From a virus: a DNA stretch of 25,668 nt. Each line of letters opens with the position of its first letter. Position 1 is the first letter of the stretch. The position numbers and the translations under genes were made by a program. Where the stretch lies: IMG/VR virus record IMGVR_UViG_3300047175_000270, positions 1-25,668 of that record; one strand, 5' to 3'. The notes beneath the pieces are model-generated. The model saw only the letters and a list, made by a program, of their open reading frames with translations, made no database searches and was not told where the DNA came from. Positions 2,090 to 7,854 of the stretch are shown piece by piece.

Positions 2090-2695
2090 TCACATTTTTC
2101 TCAGCCTCCTTTCGCGATCCTCAGCCTCCTTTCGAGCCGCATCGAGCAGGGCGACCACCTTACGTATGGCGGAAGCTATATCGGTTTCGCCAACCAGCGT
2201 GTCGTAGATCTGCGCGACGATCCGGCCCAGGTTTCCTGGATCGACTGTGTCCAGTCGTTCGGCAAAGACCCCCATCGCCATGACGATTGAGGCGCCGAGC
2301 TTGTTGGCACTGAAGTCATCGCCGATGAGAGGGGGCTGTTCCTCGGCGTCAGACGCCGCGGGACGGGTCACGCCGGCCGGGCCGACGAGCATCGCATCCG
2401 CTTGGGTGACCTTGCCAAGCGAGTAGGCCTTCATCGGGCCGTCGCCCGTGGCGAGCCATTGCAGATTCACTCGACAGGCGCGTGCCAGGGCGATCATCGC
2501 GGAAGCACGCATCTCCCGGCCGAGAAGGTAATTGCTGATCGTGCCGACAGGCACGCCAGAAGCTTCGGAGACGGGTTTGCTGCCTCCAGCGGCCTTGATC
2601 GCAGACCGGAGCCGGGAGGTGCGGGAGTCTACGTTACCCCTCTCTTCCGAGGGCGTTACGTCGTCGGCGGATAAGGCTCCCTGGGGCGTCTTCAT
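2090..2695 (-). CDS. Phage repressor, CI/c-like HTH protein
   Basis: This encodes 201 residues, divergent from the early genes, which is where Mu-type phages keep the c repressor. Residues 25-88 form a helix-turn-helix domain of the CI type ending in the typical LQWLATGDGP. The rest is a helical C-terminal part (about 125-201) and not an S24 peptidase, so RecA-stimulated self-cleavage is not expected. The recognition region (NYLLGREMR) is nearly identical to that of the HTH protein at 4425-4850. The last residues are encoded by a 20-base tandem repeat that changes frame (2100-2134). No good ribosome binding site precedes the ATG. Function as repressor is inferred from position and fold. Confidence 0.8.
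   Translation of the reverse strand: MKTPQGALSADDVTPSEERGNVDSRTSRLRSAIKAAGGSKPVSEASGVPVGTISNYLLGREMRASAMIALARACRVNLQWLATGDGPMKAYSLGKVTQADAMLVGPAGVTRPAASDAEEQPPLIGDDFSANKLGASIVMAMGVFAERLDTVDPGNLGRIVAQIYDTLVGETDIASAIRKVVALLDAARKEAEDRERRLRKM
2100..2134. repeat. Tandem repeat with 20-base period at repressor 3' end
   Basis: CTCAGCCTCCTTTCG occurs at 2100-2114 and again at 2120-2134, exactly 20 bases apart. On the coding strand the first copy reads as RKEAE and the second, in another frame, as ERRLR. Because 20 is not a multiple of three, loss or gain of one unit changes the repressor C-terminus. Confidence 0.85.
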
Positions 2696-2856
2696 GGAAT
2701 TACCAACGCAATCAGCGACTTATAGCCGGAACTGCGCCTCGCATTCGAGTTTTTGCGTTCCGATCAGCCGTAACGTTTCCGGATACGAACTTTCTGATGG
2801 ACCAACGCTCGCCGTTGGGGTAACAGCAAGGAACATTGGACTCGGATACGAGGGAA
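2696..2856. promoter_or_regulatory. Divergent early control region between repressor and ner-like gene
   Basis: About 160 bases, more A+T-rich than the surroundings, separate the leftward repressor from the rightward early genes, so promoters for both and the operators should be here. Visible elements are a dyad CCAACG-CTCGC-CGTTGG (2802-2818) and a TATAAG-like box reading leftward (2724-2719). I could not find convincing -35/-10 pairs, so operator and promoter positions remain open. Confidence 0.5.
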
Positions 2857-3165
2857 ATGAGCGGACAGCCGATCGATTGGCACTGGGAGCAGGTGAAGTC
2901 TGCCATCCGCATGCGCGGGGTCACTCTGGAGGAGCTGTCAATTCTGCTCGGGTACAGAGGCCGAGCGAATGTCGCCATCGTTGGCATAGTGGCTTGGCCG
3001 AAAGTACAGGCCGGCATCGCTTCATTCCTCAATATGAGGCCGCAGGACATCTGGCCCAGCCGCTACGACGCGGAAGGCAAACCGGTCCGGAAGCCTCGTT
3101 CCGATCGTGGTGAGCGTAAGACACGGCGCCGCGTTGAAACACCCCAAAAACAGGAAGCCGTATAG
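2857..3165 (+). CDS. ner: Ner-like (Nlp family) DNA-binding regulator
   Basis: This encodes 102 residues from the ATG at 2857; an upstream TTG at 2836 is in frame, and neither has an ideal ribosome binding site. The N-terminal half matches the Ner/Nlp pattern: DWHWEQVKSAIRMRGVTLEEL, then WPKVQAGIASFLNMRPQDIW and SRYD. The W-P-K-V and I-W-P-S-R-Y elements are the hallmark of Mu Ner relatives. Ner in Mu turns down early and repressor transcription. The C-terminal 30 residues are basic and probably disordered. It is the first rightward gene, exactly where ner sits in Mu. Confidence 0.85.
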   Translation: MSGQPIDWHWEQVKSAIRMRGVTLEELSILLGYRGRANVAIVGIVAWPKVQAGIASFLNMRPQDIWPSRYDAEGKPVRKPRSDRGERKTRRRVETPQKQEAV

Positions 3166-3167
3166 GC

Positions 3168-3965
3168 ATGGAAATCCGCGAAATTCCGATCGGTGCAATC
3201 GACCGGAGCGATCGGTTGCGCAAAGTCGACCCGGACTTCGCGGGTATGATCGCGGCATCGTTCGCCGTTCACGGGCAGCGGACCCCAATCGAGGTGCGTC
3301 CGGTTGAAGGCGGCCGGTTCAGGTTGATAGCTGGCGCTCACCGGGTCGACGCCGCCGAGCAGCTCGGCTGGGCGACGATCAAGGCGGTGGAAAAGGCGGT
3401 TGATGACCTGACCGCTACGCTCCTGGAGATCGACGAGAACCTGATGCGGCACGAGCTGACCGCTTTGGATCGGGCCATCTTTCTGGCCCGGCGCAAGGTG
3501 ACGTACGACCTTTTGCACCCAGAAGCGGCGAAGCGGGGACGGCGGAAAGGAATTGGGCTAAAGTTTAGCCCAATTAAAAGCTTCGCCGAAGACGTAGCTG
3601 AGCGGCTGAAAATCAGCGGCAAGGCAGTCGATCTGGCGGTGCGGCGGTTCAACAAGCTGAGCCCTAACGTTCGCGATCGGCTGTCCGGGACCAGGATCGC
3701 CGCCAAAGGCGTCTGGCTCGATCAGATCGCCCGACTTCAACACGACCGCCAGATTGCAGTGGTCGAGGAAATGCTGCGGCAGGGCGGCGCTGAGACGCCG
3801 GCTTTGGCAATTCAGCGGCTATTCCCGAAGCTGCCCCGGCCGCCCGCGGCGCAGCTTCCCCGGCTTACGAGAGCCTGGGAGCTGGCGAACGCCGAGGAGC
3901 GGGAGGCCTTCGTTCTGTGGCTGCGGAAGAACGGCGGACTGCCGAGCCGCGGTAAGGGCGCCTGA
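3168..3965 (+). CDS. ParB-like nuclease-fold protein
   Basis: This encodes 265 residues. The N-terminal third has the ParB/Srx fold signature: an initial IREIPIGAI strand, GQRTPIEVRP, and the box GAHRVDAAEQLGW at residues 56-68, equivalent to ParB box II. A helical DNA-binding-like part follows (about 138-180). ParB-like proteins appear in the early region of many alphaproteobacterial Mu-like phages, usually without ParA; none is seen here. The gene starts 2 bases after the ner-like stop. A perfect 25-base palindrome (3551-3575) falls in a loop between the two parts. Role in the phage is unknown; regulator or DNA-organising protein are options. Confidence 0.8.
   Translation: MEIREIPIGAIDRSDRLRKVDPDFAGMIAASFAVHGQRTPIEVRPVEGGRFRLIAGAHRVDAAEQLGWATIKAVEKAVDDLTATLLEIDENLMRHELTALDRAIFLARRKVTYDLLHPEAAKRGRRKGIGLKFSPIKSFAEDVAERLKISGKAVDLAVRRFNKLSPNVRDRLSGTRIAAKGVWLDQIARLQHDRQIAVVEEMLRQGGAETPALAIQRLFPKLPRPPAAQLPRLTRAWELANAEEREAFVLWLRKNGGLPSRGKGA
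3551..3575. promoter_or_regulatory. Perfect 25-base palindrome inside the ParB-like gene
   Basis: AATTGGGCTAAA (3551-3562), a central G, then TTTAGCCCAATT (3564-3575): both arms match at all 12 positions. It is A+T-rich against a very G+C-rich background and encodes residues about 128-136 of the ParB-like protein. It may be an operator, a parS-like loading site or an RNA hairpin. Confidence 0.7.
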
Positions 3966-3966
3966 C

Positions 3967-4428
3967 GTGGCGCGGCAGCCCCCTACACAGCAAGCCGATC
4001 TGCTGGAATGGACGCCGCCGGAGCCGGTGGTGCGGTTCGAGCCGCGCGTGGTGCAAGCCGCGACGCTGGCATCGAAGATAGCCAAGGCGATCGGGCAGTC
4101 TCTCCGCGATCACCCACAGACGCGACCGCAGGTGGCTGCGGAAATGAGCCGGTTTCTAGGGCGTGAGGTGCGCGCGAGCAGCCTGGACACCTACGCCAGC
4201 GAGGCGAAGGCCGATCACGTGATCAACGTGGTGCTGTTCATGGCCCTGCTGCACGCGACGGGCGACCGGCGGCTATTGGAAATGCTGGCAGCCGATATGG
4301 GCTGGGCCGTGATCGAGCGGCGCTGGCTGCGGCTGATCGATCTGGCGGCCTTGCAGGAAAAAGAGGCCGAGCTGCGCAGCCAATCGTCGGCGCTGCGGCG
4401 ACTGGCGCGGGCGGAGGGAACGCTATGA
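3967..4428 (+). CDS. Phage regulatory protein, CII-like (uncertain)
   Basis: This encodes 153 residues from a GTG one base after the preceding stop; the upstream open frame is an out-of-frame reading of the ParB-like gene. The middle (about residues 40-110) is helical, with SLDTYASEAKADHVINVV followed by LLHATGDRRLLEMLA. This arrangement (choice of determinant, then a TGD motif and a C-terminal helical tail) resembles phage CII/CP76-type regulators. It ends with a charged coiled-coil-like helix. It overlaps the next start by 4 bases, so the two genes are probably translationally coupled. The family assignment is by resemblance only. Confidence 0.65.
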   Translation: MARQPPTQQADLLEWTPPEPVVRFEPRVVQAATLASKIAKAIGQSLRDHPQTRPQVAAEMSRFLGREVRASSLDTYASEAKADHVINVVLFMALLHATGDRRLLEMLAADMGWAVIERRWLRLIDLAALQEKEAELRSQSSALRRLARAEGTL

Positions 4429-4850
4429 AAAACGAGGAATTCACGGCGCGGCTGAGGGGCGCTGTTTGGCGGAACGGCGGGGTGCGGGCCATAGCGGCAA
4501 TGTCTGGCGTCCCGGCCGGTAGCCTTGGAAATTACCTGATGGGCCGCGAGATGCGTGGATCCAGGGCCGCGGCAATCGCCAAAGCATGCGGGGTTTCAGT
4601 CGATTGGCTGCTCACGGGTGAAGGCGTGGAGCGGCTTCCCGATCCTCCCGAGGAGGTTTCACAGTCGATGTCCTCGGCGACGTCAGAAGATGTCGCCGAT
4701 CTGATCGGTTCGATATGGATGCTGATCGAGCAGGAGTATTTCAGCCGGGCGGAAGCTTTGGGAATTGCCAGAGCGCGATTTGAGACGGCTCAAAAGGCCT
4801 ACTTAGCGGTCCAAAATATGCGCGCGCGATCGGGCTCTACGAAGGCATGA
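4425..4850 (+). CDS. HTH regulator related to the repressor
   Basis: This encodes 141 residues. Residues 28-67 match the repressor HTH at 23 of 40 positions by my hand alignment, including NYL-GREMR in the putative recognition region and a C-terminal WLLTGEG. The remaining part is a short helical domain. It lies directly before the transposase and overlaps it by 4 bases (ATGA). Because its DNA-contacting residues nearly equal those of the repressor, it may bind the same operators and act as a counter-regulator. That is inference. Confidence 0.75.
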   Translation: MKNEEFTARLRGAVWRNGGVRAIAAMSGVPAGSLGNYLMGREMRGSRAAAIAKACGVSVDWLLTGEGVERLPDPPEEVSQSMSSATSEDVADLIGSIWMLIEQEYFSRAEALGIARARFETAQKAYLAVQNMRARSGSTKA

Positions 4851-6823
4851 CCGAGCTGCGGGCCTGGTTTTCAGCGGCGGAATTGGCGGCGTTTAAGCTG
4901 CCTTCGTTCCCCTCGACCAAGAAGTGCGTGCTGGAATTCATGGCGCGCGAGGACTGCAATCGTCCAGACCGAGAGGGGATTTGGTGGCGCCTGAGGAAGG
5001 CGAGTGGCGGCGGTGTGGAATACAATTTGAGCGTGCTGCCTCAGACGCCGCAGAGTGCGTTGCTGCATCGGCTGCGGGGCGAGGCGAATACGGCGGCGCC
5101 GGTGGTGGATACGCGCGTGGCGATGGATCGCGACGCGGCTTGGGTGCGGTTCAACCAGGTTTCGGAGAAGCAGCGGCGCAAGGCGCAGCAGCGGCTTGCG
5201 GCGGTGGTGGCCTATTACGACAAGCTGGCGGTCTGTTGGCTGAGCGAGCCTGCGGTGCAGAGCGTGTGCGCCGATTTCAAGGTTGGGCACTCCGCACTTT
5301 ATTCGTGGATCGCGCGGGTGAAGCATGTCGATCGTGCCGATTGGGTCGCGCACCTGATCGAGGCGCGGATCGGCGTGGGGACCGAAGCCGACTGTTCGCC
5401 AGAAGCGTGGGACATGCTCAAGGCGCTGTATCTGCGGCCTGGGCACCAGTCGTTCGAGACTTGCTATCGCAGCGTCAAAAGGGTTGGCGAGGGCAAAGGG
5501 TGGGTGGTGCCGTGCGCGCGCACGCTGAAACGGCGGATCGAGAAGATACCGCTGCAGGCGCGGGTGATGGCGCAGCAGGGGCCGGAGCAGCTGAAGCGGA
5601 TGTATCCGGCGCAGCGGCGCGACCGGGGCGTGTTCCGCGCGCTGGAGGCGGTGTGCGCGGACGGGCACCAGCTGGATGTATTCGTGAAATGGGACGACGG
5701 CACGGTGGGGCGGCCGATGCTGATGGCCTTCCAGGACCTTTACAGCGGCATGATCCTGAGCTGGCGGATCGACCGTTCCGAAAACAAGGAAATGATCAGG
5801 CTCGCGTTTGGCGATCTGGTGGAAGAATTCGGCATCCCGGATCACTGCTACCTGGATAACGGCCGGGCCTTTGCCTCCAAATGGATATCCGGGGGCGCCA
5901 AGCGACGGTTCCGGTTCAAGGCGAACCTGGACGACCCGATCGGCGTGATGGGCACGTTGGGCGTGGAAGTGCATTTTGTGACGCCCTATTCGGGGCAATC
6001 CAAGCCGATCGAGCGGTCATGGCGGGATTTTGGCGACAGCATCAGTCGCGATGTGCGGCTAGCGGGGGCCTATACCGGGCCGAACGTGCGGGAAAAGCCG
6101 GCTGATTATGGGACGCGCGCGGTCAGCCTGGATGAGCTGATGCGCGTGATCGCCGACCAGGTGGTGGAGCATAATTCGCGCACCGGGCGGAAAACCCAGG
6201 TGTGCGGCGGCAAGCTATCGTTCCGGCAGGCGTTCGACGGCAGCTATCGCGATGGCGAGATCAAGAAGGCCACGGCGATGCAGCGGCAGCTTTGGCTGCT
6301 GATGGGCGAGGTGCTGACTGTGCGGCAGCCCGATGCGGCGCTGCATCTGATGAACAACCGCTACTGGTGCGAAGACCTGGTGCAGCTGATGGGCAAGCGG
6401 GTGACCGTGCGGTTCGATCCGCAGCGGCTGCATGACGATTTGAAGGTCTATACGCTGGACGGCCGCTTTCTGTGTGCGGCGCCCTGTGTGGCCGATGTGG
6501 GCTTCAACAGTGTGACGGCGGCGCAGGAGCAGGCGCGCAATCGCAAAGCCTACATGCGGGCCGCCAAGACGGTTTCAGAGCTGGAGCGCGGCATGTCGAT
6601 CGAGACGTGCGCGGCGCTGTTGGACAGCGTGCAGCGGGCGCCGGAGCCGGCGCCCGAGGCCAAAATTGTGCGGCTGATTACCCAGGGCAGCGCTGCGCGC
6701 GCCGCGGTGATCGAGGCTGCTGACGAGATCGCTGCCGACGATGGATTGAGCGAGACGGACCGGCTGTTTCTGCGCGCGAACGCGAAGCTGCGGCTGGTGC
6801 GGGAGGAGGCGGCGGAGGTCTGA
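4847..6823 (+). CDS. A: Mu-type transposase A (DDE recombinase)
   Basis: This encodes 658 residues, about the length of MuA. The N-terminus (1-70) has the MuA end/enhancer-binding winged-helix pattern (LRAWFSAAELAAFKLPSFP, then WWRLRKASG). Helical DNA-binding domains follow (about 100-240). The catalytic core has D272 in VCADGHQLDVFVKW, D337 in CYLDNGRAFASKW and E389 in QSKPIERSW, equivalent to the MuA DDE triad and almost at the same numbers. A beta-barrel Mu_transpos_C region and a C-terminal tail (about 560-658), which in MuA contacts B and ClpX, come next. It catalyses replicative transposition and integration of the phage. Confidence 0.96.
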   Translation: MTELRAWFSAAELAAFKLPSFPSTKKCVLEFMAREDCNRPDREGIWWRLRKASGGGVEYNLSVLPQTPQSALLHRLRGEANTAAPVVDTRVAMDRDAAWVRFNQVSEKQRRKAQQRLAAVVAYYDKLAVCWLSEPAVQSVCADFKVGHSALYSWIARVKHVDRADWVAHLIEARIGVGTEADCSPEAWDMLKALYLRPGHQSFETCYRSVKRVGEGKGWVVPCARTLKRRIEKIPLQARVMAQQGPEQLKRMYPAQRRDRGVFRALEAVCADGHQLDVFVKWDDGTVGRPMLMAFQDLYSGMILSWRIDRSENKEMIRLAFGDLVEEFGIPDHCYLDNGRAFASKWISGGAKRRFRFKANLDDPIGVMGTLGVEVHFVTPYSGQSKPIERSWRDFGDSISRDVRLAGAYTGPNVREKPADYGTRAVSLDELMRVIADQVVEHNSRTGRKTQVCGGKLSFRQAFDGSYRDGEIKKATAMQRQLWLLMGEVLTVRQPDAALHLMNNRYWCEDLVQLMGKRVTVRFDPQRLHDDLKVYTLDGRFLCAAPCVADVGFNSVTAAQEQARNRKAYMRAAKTVSELERGMSIETCAALLDSVQRAPEPAPEAKIVRLITQGSAARAAVIEAADEIAADDGLSETDRLFLRANAKLRLVREEAAEV

Positions 6824-6870: not shown

Positions 6871-7854
6871 ATGACGGATACCGAGTTGGCTACAGCGGCG
6901 GCGGATCACGCCGCGCTGCGACAGCGTGTGCGGGATATCCAGGCTGGGGAGCGGCTGAACCAGAAGCAGCTCGCGACCGAGAGCGGGATCGCTTACGGCA
7001 CGTTCACCAACTGGCTGGGCGGCACCTACGAGGGCGACCTGGATAAATTGGGCGCGCGGGTGCTGACCTGGCTGGAGAGCCGGCCGAAGCGTTCGCGCGT
7101 GCAGGCATCGATGCCGGACGCTCCGGGGTTCACCGAGACGCCGTCGGCCGAGTTGTTCATGACCACGCTGGAGCATGCGCAATACATGCCAGACATGGTT
7201 CTGGTAATCGGCGCGCCGGGCCTGGGCAAGACCATGGCGGCGACCCGCTATCAGAGCCGCAACCCGAATGTGTGGATGGTGACGGCGGAGCCGTGCGGCG
7301 GCTCGGCGCGGTCGCTGCTGGAGTTGATCGCGGGATCCATGGGGTTCGCGACGGCTGGCGTTTCGGCGCCGCGGCTTTCCAGCGAGATCGCGCGCAAGGT
7401 GCGCGGATCGAAGGCGCTGCTGGTGATCGACGAGGCGCAGCATCTGCTGCCGATGGCGCTGGATCAGCTGCGCACGCTGCACGATGCGGCCGGCTGCGGC
7501 GTGGGACTGGTGGGCAACGAGACGATCGTGGCGCGAATTTCCGGTGGCGGGCGCACGCATTTTGCCCAGCTGACCAGCCGCGTGGGCATGCGCATCCAGC
7601 GGCTGCGGCCGATGCCGGCGGATGTTGGCACGCTGCTGGATGCGTGGGGTGTGGAAGACCGCGAGCAGCGCGGCACGCTGAACGCGATCGCGCAGAAGCC
7701 AGGCACGCTGCGGCTGATGACGAAGGCGCTGCGGCTGGCCCACAAGCTGGCGAGTGCCGACGGCAGCGAGCTGCTGCACACGCACATCCAGGCCAGCTGG
7801 GCGCGGCTTTCGAACAATGAGGATTTGGGGCGCGGGAAAGGAGTTGAGGCATGA
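6871..7854 (+). CDS. B: Mu B-type AAA+ ATPase, target-DNA activator
   Basis: This encodes 327 residues. An N-terminal HTH (about 25-65: LNQKQLATESGIAYGTFTNWL) is followed by an AAA+ domain with Walker A GAPGLGKT (114-121) and Walker B LLVIDEAQHL (183-192). This HTH plus ATPase order is that of Mu B, which coats target DNA, delivers it to the transpososome and gives target immunity. The ribosome binding site AGAGG stands 6 bases before the ATG. It follows A after a 47-base gap with competing hairpins and overlaps the next gene by 4 bases. Confidence 0.95.
   Translation: MTDTELATAAADHAALRQRVRDIQAGERLNQKQLATESGIAYGTFTNWLGGTYEGDLDKLGARVLTWLESRPKRSRVQASMPDAPGFTETPSAELFMTTLEHAQYMPDMVLVIGAPGLGKTMAATRYQSRNPNVWMVTAEPCGGSARSLLELIAGSMGFATAGVSAPRLSSEIARKVRGSKALLVIDEAQHLLPMALDQLRTLHDAAGCGVGLVGNETIVARISGGGRTHFAQLTSRVGMRIQRLRPMPADVGTLLDAWGVEDREQRGTLNAIAQKPGTLRLMTKALRLAHKLASADGSELLHTHIQASWARLSNNEDLGRGKGVEA

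Follow-up and report, generated by a model that had tools for sequence, protein, structure and literature searches.

A 25.7 kb virus record from IMG/VR (IMGVR_UViG_3300047175_000270, positions 1–25 668, referred to below as the window) holds the early region of a Mu-like prophage, and the coding sequence of its ParB-like gene contains a perfect 25 bp palindrome. What reads this palindrome, and why does it lie inside a gene? The first-pass annotation, made without database searches, had proposed as its lead idea that a phage ParB-like factor carries its own site within its gene, with a repressor operator or an RNA hairpin as alternatives. This lead idea is strongly supported by the recurrence of palindromes at one specific position in homologous genes, by residue–base covariation and by a held-out test. 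It is very likely that the ParB-like protein recognizes the palindrome within its own gene as its cognate DNA site, a conclusion that rests on covariation and not on binding data.

The palindrome lies in the linker of a ParB-like protein

The palindrome consists of the arms AATTGGGCTAAA and TTTAGCCCAATT around a central G, with complementarity at 12 of 12 positions. The earlier description of a perfect 25-base palindrome thus held exactly at the position given in Table 1, as did that of an A+T-rich element in a G+C-rich region (a G+C content of 36% versus 64% for the ParB-like gene and 66% for the window). In first-order Markov sequences, 0.025 palindromes with arms of at least 12 bases and a centre no longer than 2 nt would be expected per 25.7 kb; the palindrome is real and a chance origin is excluded. 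Even when 3 or as many as 7 mismatches are allowed, the window contains no other copy. The exact sequence has no match in IMG/VR, and a consensus scan identified neither a terminator nor a promoter at the palindrome.

The encoded protein matches PF02195 (E = 5e-8, above the cut-off) and phrog_3264 (E = 3.5e-53). Its AlphaFold model, for which the alignment input was restricted to the window and the fetched-locus sequences, has a mean pLDDT of 91.8. The best structural matches obtained with Foldseek are Noc, ParB and KorB, with Noc (7nfu) at the top, and ParB structures in their CTP- or CDP-bound form are matched as well. Residues R16, R18, G36, G56, R59, E87 and N91 of the ParB_N domain are invariant in 58 homologues, and R16, R18, G56, R59, E87 and N91 correspond to the CTP-pocket residues of ParB. 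The criterion of membership of the ParB/Noc/KorB family, with a ParB_N CTPase fold and its nucleotide-pocket residues, is met.

In the model, the HTH comprises helices 139–147 and 151–163. The codons under the palindrome specify residues 128–136, inside a linker (residues 121–140) that separates the ParB_N domain from the HTH and is modelled with low confidence (pLDDT 63–73 versus about 95 on either side). Because the palindrome falls in this low-confidence stretch, its earlier description as lying in a loop that is free to vary is correct.

The gene is surrounded by the regulators and transposition genes listed in Table 1, in an order that is similar in phages RcapMu, RcWaterboi, Aussie and StopSmel; RcapMu, Aussie and StopSmel are laboratory phages of R. 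capsulatus and S. meliloti. The HTH protein encoded upstream of transposase A and the CI-like repressor are paralogues, with 51% identity over a 61-residue HTH region.

Table 1. Positions of the palindrome and of the surrounding features in the window.
Feature	Position	Strand	Basis or remark
CI-like repressor, divergent	2090..2695	-	HTH_3 and phrog_4
Ner-like regulator, directly upstream of the ParB-like gene	2836..3165	+	PF13693, E = 2.6e-15
ParB-like protein, 265 aa	3168..3965	+	ParB_N CTPase-fold domain, HTH and C-terminal helices
ParB_N/CTPase-fold domain, residues 2–92	3171..3443	+	
Perfect 25 bp palindrome, AATTGGGCTAAA-G-TTTAGCCCAATT	3551..3575	none	Proposed site for binding (loading) by the ParB-like protein
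Recognition helix of the HTH, residues 151–163	3618..3656	+	AlphaFold model and covariation
Covarying codon 152 (Lys)	3621-3623	+	
Covarying codon 155 (Asp)	3630-3632	+	
Covarying codon 156 (Leu)	3633-3635	+	
HTH protein between the ParB-like gene and transposase A	4425..4850	+	
Mu-type transposase A, downstream of the ParB-like gene	4847..6823	+	PF02914, E = 2.5e-50
Mu-type transposition protein B	6871..7854	+	PF09077, E = 2e-19; later genes lie beyond

Palindromes recur in the linkers of homologous genes

Homologues were collected from phage records, one plasmid, bacterial genomes and IMG/VR, and 139 non-redundant genes were kept. Most are about 28–45% identical to the window protein, and a Mu-type transposase is present in the locus of 110 of the 127 homologues for which at least 1 kb of downstream sequence is available. 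Their linkers vary in both length and sequence.

Perfect palindromes with arms of at least 9 bp occur in 64 of the 139 linkers, and 54 have arms of at least 11 bp. The remainder of the same genes, which amounts to seven times more DNA, contains only ten and one, respectively. When synonymous codons were shuffled within the genes (200 trials), the 54 observed palindromes dropped to a mean of 0.9 and a maximum of 3. If imperfect sites are included, 100 of the 139 linkers reach a symmetry of 11 or more of 13 pairs, compared with about six in the shuffles. Chance alone would bring about 23 of the 139 to 10 of 13 pairs, and a clear linker site (at least 10 of 13) is missing in 19, for example in L020 and in the second genes of tandem pairs. 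The sites measure 24–31 bp, mostly odd, occupy all three codon phases and lie 0.3 to 35 residues before the HTH.

The letters of the palindrome change from lineage to lineage while its place remains constant. The linker site reads CGGTGGGAAAA-c-TTTTCCCACCG in RcapMu, AACAGGGTAAT-g-ATTACCCTGTT in StopSmel and ATCGAAGGGCAC-cga-GTGCCCTTCGAT in Aussie; the closest to the core of the window palindrome is that of locus L049, CAAAGGCTAAA-c-TTTAGCCTTTG. Within 7 mismatches, no second site is present in the genomes of RcapMu, Aussie and StopSmel or in the window. A search of plasmids for close DNA relatives returned only a 71 bp conserved ParB stretch. The first-pass annotation had suggested looking for the same palindrome in relatives and had regarded its absence there as part of a refutation. 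Taken as conservation of letters this would be misleading: the sequence is not conserved, but a palindrome at the same place is.

Two variations on this arrangement were observed. The linker of L002 contains tandem near-perfect copies, GATCAGAACGACAA-AG-TTGTCGATCTGATC and TCAAAACGACAA-GG-TTGTCGATTTGA, each within a repeated DQNDKVVDL stretch; this may represent a doubled loading site, where loading itself is inferred. Tandem pairs of ParB-like genes are found in one bacterial order (L019/L030, L037/L041, L022/L031, L045/L046 and related loci), and in the pairs that were inspected the linker palindrome is usually in the first gene and absent from the second.

Residues of the recognition helix covary with half-site bases

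Sites were picked by symmetry alone, before any comparison with the protein. The bases of the half-site were counted outwards from the centre, with a shift of one for sites of even length, and were compared with every protein column. Correlations between half-site bases 7–11 and residues 137–140 were excluded because these codons may overlap the site.

The three strongest residue–base links all fall in the recognition helix and join residue 155 to base 6, residue 156 to base 3 and residue 152 to base 5. With Gln or Glu at position 155, base 6 is G in all cases (34/34 and 20/20, respectively). With Arg it is C in 32 of 32 sites and with Lys in 9 of 11, while the aromatic residues Phe, Tyr and Trp are paired with A (6/6). 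Together, these classes agree with base 6 in 101 of 103 sites. Arg156 is accompanied by G3 in 72 of 81 resolved sites, whereas Leu, Ile, Met or Ala at this position is accompanied by T3 in 27 of 28. Arg152 is always found with C5 (94/94). Base 6 can be predicted from residue 155 alone at 96%, while the runner-up among all columns reaches 68%. Arginine to guanine, and glutamate to the cytosine of the partner strand, are the usual chemistry of such contacts, and the code is consistent with this.

Could this covariation be a by-product of shared codons or of shared ancestry? Shared codons cannot cause it, since the site ends at least 26 nt ahead of codon 152, and the code linking residue 155 to base 6 is valid whichever of the three codon phases the site occupies. 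On a tree of the N-domain, the class of residue 155 switches about 26 times and base 6 about 25 times; in ten of ten independent supported pairs the two switch jointly (p = 0.002). The distance between sites tracks the distance between HTHs with the N-domain distance held constant (partial r = 0.24, p = 0.001), and shows a partial r of -0.04 with the N-domain distance. Aussie and StopSmel, which come from one host strain, are separated by an N-domain distance of 0.08 and an HTH distance of 0.28, and their sites differ too.

The code was then applied to a held-out set of 103 new non-redundant homologues from two further IMG/VR scans. Among resolved cases in which 10 or more of the 13 pairs are symmetric, base 6 was predicted correctly in 88 of 88. 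At a threshold of 11 of 13 pairs, Arg156 is found with G3 in 42 of 42 cases and other residues are found with T3 in 35 of 36.

In the window, Leu156 is paired with T3, a combination seen in 18 of 18 cases, and Asp155 with C6, which holds in four of four, the window included. Lys152 faces G5, and in the family this residue is paired with either C or G. The window's own site is a weak test of the code because Lys152 and Asp155 are less common residues. The place of the site, its palindromic form and the residue–base code are shown by computation, while physical binding is inferred. The criterion that the HTH reads a palindromic site is met through covariation only, at residues 152, 155 and 156.

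A model for site recognition and clamp loading

In the model that we propose, a dimer of the ParB-like protein would read both half-sites through the recognition helices of its HTHs. Across the family, base pairs 3, 5 and 6 from the centre are predicted to be contacted by residues 156, 152 and 155, respectively. The site would be housed in codons for a disordered linker that tolerates nearly any sequence and that adjoins the codons of the DNA-binding domain. As the site adjoins the HTH codons, recombination carries both the site and its reader, and the two may be inherited or exchanged as a single cassette.

Binding would then load a clamp gated by CTP, which would slide out along the early region, as do ParB, Noc and KorB. 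Two features underlie this inference, namely the invariance of the CTP-pocket residues and a fold shared with these three proteins. We favour clamp loading as the likeliest function, by a modest margin only, since CTP binding and hydrolysis, closing and sliding are all deduced from fold and motifs. The clamp may limit expression of the parB–A–B operon or may organize the phage DNA for transposition, and the fast change of the code would keep the sites of one Mu-like phage out of reach of others resident in the same host.

Distinct linker sites are found in distinct ParB-like prophage genes of one bacterial genome in G552 (L053 and L074), G617 (L071 and L075) and G788 (L077 and L078). Differing sites in co-resident prophages are what is expected if the sites keep phages apart, and these cases are too few to serve as a test.

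Alternative explanations

The main rival concerns function only. The site may be a roadblock operator at which a bound, non-sliding dimer stops RNA polymerase inside its own gene, which would provide negative feedback on the ParB-like gene and on the downstream transposase genes; the site would still be the protein's own. This is possible, as there is one site per phage genome tested and it is located in the opening portion of the early operon, ahead of A and B. The relative KorB also acts as a repressor (PMC11790492). On the other hand, the invariant CTP-pocket residues R16, R18, G56, R59, E87 and N91 would be needless in a plain operator-binding repressor, and operators normally sit at promoters. 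A clamp-loading site and a roadblock operator both remain compatible with the data.

An mRNA hairpin, acting to restrict expression or to set the pace at which the protein folds, is very unlikely. The predicted fold is stable (-26.8 kcal/mol, z = -5.0) and relatives keep the stem despite an altered sequence, but every DNA palindrome folds likewise as RNA. Among near-symmetric sites the mismatches are 49 G–T versus 51 A–C, without any preference for G–U. RNA pairing is disfavoured by this balance because selection for it would raise G–T over A–C. Compensatory changes with tolerance of G–U, the criterion for a structured RNA, are thus not met. In addition, 100 of 120 sites are symmetric about one base, and many have a centre of 1 nt, which is too short for an RNA loop. 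RNA pairing also leaves the residue–base code with the HTH helix unexplained. The hairpin that had been listed earlier as an alternative is disfavoured on the grounds of the missing G–U excess and of the covariation with a DNA-reading helix.

It is equally improbable that the palindrome is an operator of the phage repressor or of Ner that happens to fall in the ParB-like gene. All three regulators are adjacent and repressor operators are palindromic. However, the single-residue covariation is with the helix of the ParB-like protein (covariation with Ner or the repressor was not compared), and RcapMu and RcWaterboi have other, unrelated palindromes between repressor and ner: TTCTCTGTTTACTAAACAGAGAA at 3160–3182 in RcapMu (L159) and TTTGCACTTTACTAAAGTGCAAA at 1815–1837 in RcWaterboi (L162). 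Since these phages carry a different palindrome there, it is unlikely that the repressor uses the linker site as its operator. The repressor operator of the earlier annotation is disfavoured on both counts. TTCTCTGTTTACTAAACAGAGAA and TTTGCACTTTACTAAAGTGCAAA themselves share a common centre and differ in their arms; they are likely to be repressor or Ner operators that also diversify.

Chance, a coding by-product such as a conserved N-D-x-x-S-F peptide, or a short mobile palindromic element is all but excluded: one class of sites (AACGACA..TGTCGTT) does overlap a recurring NDxxSF peptide, but synonymous shuffles lose the palindromes, the sites use all codon phases at variable distances from the HTH with letters unrelated between lineages, and the held-out code is correct.

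Comparison with ParB, KorB and Noc

The proposed system resembles ParB–parS (Spo0J, Caulobacter ParB) in its ParB_N CTPase fold, its palindrome-reading HTH and its single loading site, which for the phage is a proposal. The recognition helices are equivalent, with residues 150–156 aligning in a profile alignment with approximately residues 172–178 of C. crescentus ParB, the contacts of which have been described (PMC7383237). In B. subtilis, spo0J is a known case of a parB gene that harbours a parS site. Chromosomal parS is 16 bp long and near-constant across bacteria, whereas the phage sites measure 24–31 bp, are mostly odd in length, are specific to their lineage and lie in the linker codons of their own gene. 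The canonical 16 bp parS, TGTTTCACGTGAAACA, matches nothing in the window when up to 3 mismatches are allowed.

Unlike ParABS, the phage system has neither ParA nor a ParA-binding motif. The motif is absent from all 139 homologues, and no ParA is annotated in RcapMu, Aussie, StopSmel or RcWaterboi. A ParABS-type role in partition is unlikely for this reason, and control of early genes or of transposition is inferred to be the likelier task.

KorB of plasmid RK2, a structural match to the ParB-like protein, is a repressor of the ParB family; it is loaded onto DNA at a short palindrome and slides with CTP (PMC11790492). Its operator OB is TTTAGCSGCTAAA. In contrast to the phage site, OB sits at promoters and in several copies. 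In the window, TTTAGCSGCTAAA is matched only with 2–3 mismatches near chance level, and never at the palindrome. The hexamers GCTAAA and TTTAGC of the window palindrome are those of OB turned inside out, a resemblance that we treat as coincidence.

Noc, the site of which is NBS, is the best structural match (7nfu), and its specificity changed through a few recognition residues (PMC7383237). Noc switched its code once from that of ParB, whereas the code linking residue 155 to base 6 switched about 25 times in the sampled phage family. Noc sites are scattered over the chromosome, unlike the phage linker site.

The same family is represented by PHROG 3264 (`ParB-like nuclease/partition protein'), with members in the alphaproteobacterial Mu-like phages RcapMu13, Aussie_9 and StopSmel_7 that occupy the same place as the window gene, between ner and transposase A. 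These members are annotated by homology only, and their records contain no annotated binding site.

A possible self-contained specificity cassette

Earlier work on ParB and Noc has already addressed changes of specificity within the ParB family (PMC7383237). For a phage parB gene with its own site we found nothing relevant in the literature that was searched, a scope that leaves out most subscription journals and preprints, and the text of a 2025 survey of the ParB-CTPase fold (PMC12704722) contains neither `palindrom' nor `Mu-like'. A family-wide, co-diversifying intragenic phage site has no precedent that we could find in the searchable literature.

A bolder reading can be formulated, which as a joint claim could as easily fail as hold. 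It states that transposable phages of one large family each carry a specificity cassette that is complete in itself, namely a clamp of the ParB type with its sole loading site in its own linker codons, beside the codons that read the DNA. Site and reader would co-diversify repeatedly and form a natural library of matched protein–DNA pairs, and the purpose would probably be to lessen interference among co-infecting or co-resident Mu-like phages in transposition or early-gene control. If this is true, Mu-type transposition would have a regulator that had not been seen before, the ParB-like protein, acting from a linker site.

A widespread phage protein annotated merely as `ParB-like' thereby gains a predicted DNA site and a readable recognition code. 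About 200 natural ParB-type protein/site pairs with single-residue switches are open to testing. The use of a coding linker as the store for a regulatory site keeps reader and site linked through recombination. The family also points to a ParA-less ParB-type clamp, the clamp being inferred, that would control early genes or transposition in Mu-like phages.

Left flank of the prophage

To the left of the prophage genes, positions 1–846 of the window form a complete ORF with a Hint_2 domain (PF13403), which is probably part of the host flank. Just past this ORF, at 920–981, an inverted repeat has 27 bp arms that are 96% complementary around an 8 nt spacer; it may be a terminator or a remnant near the prophage border.
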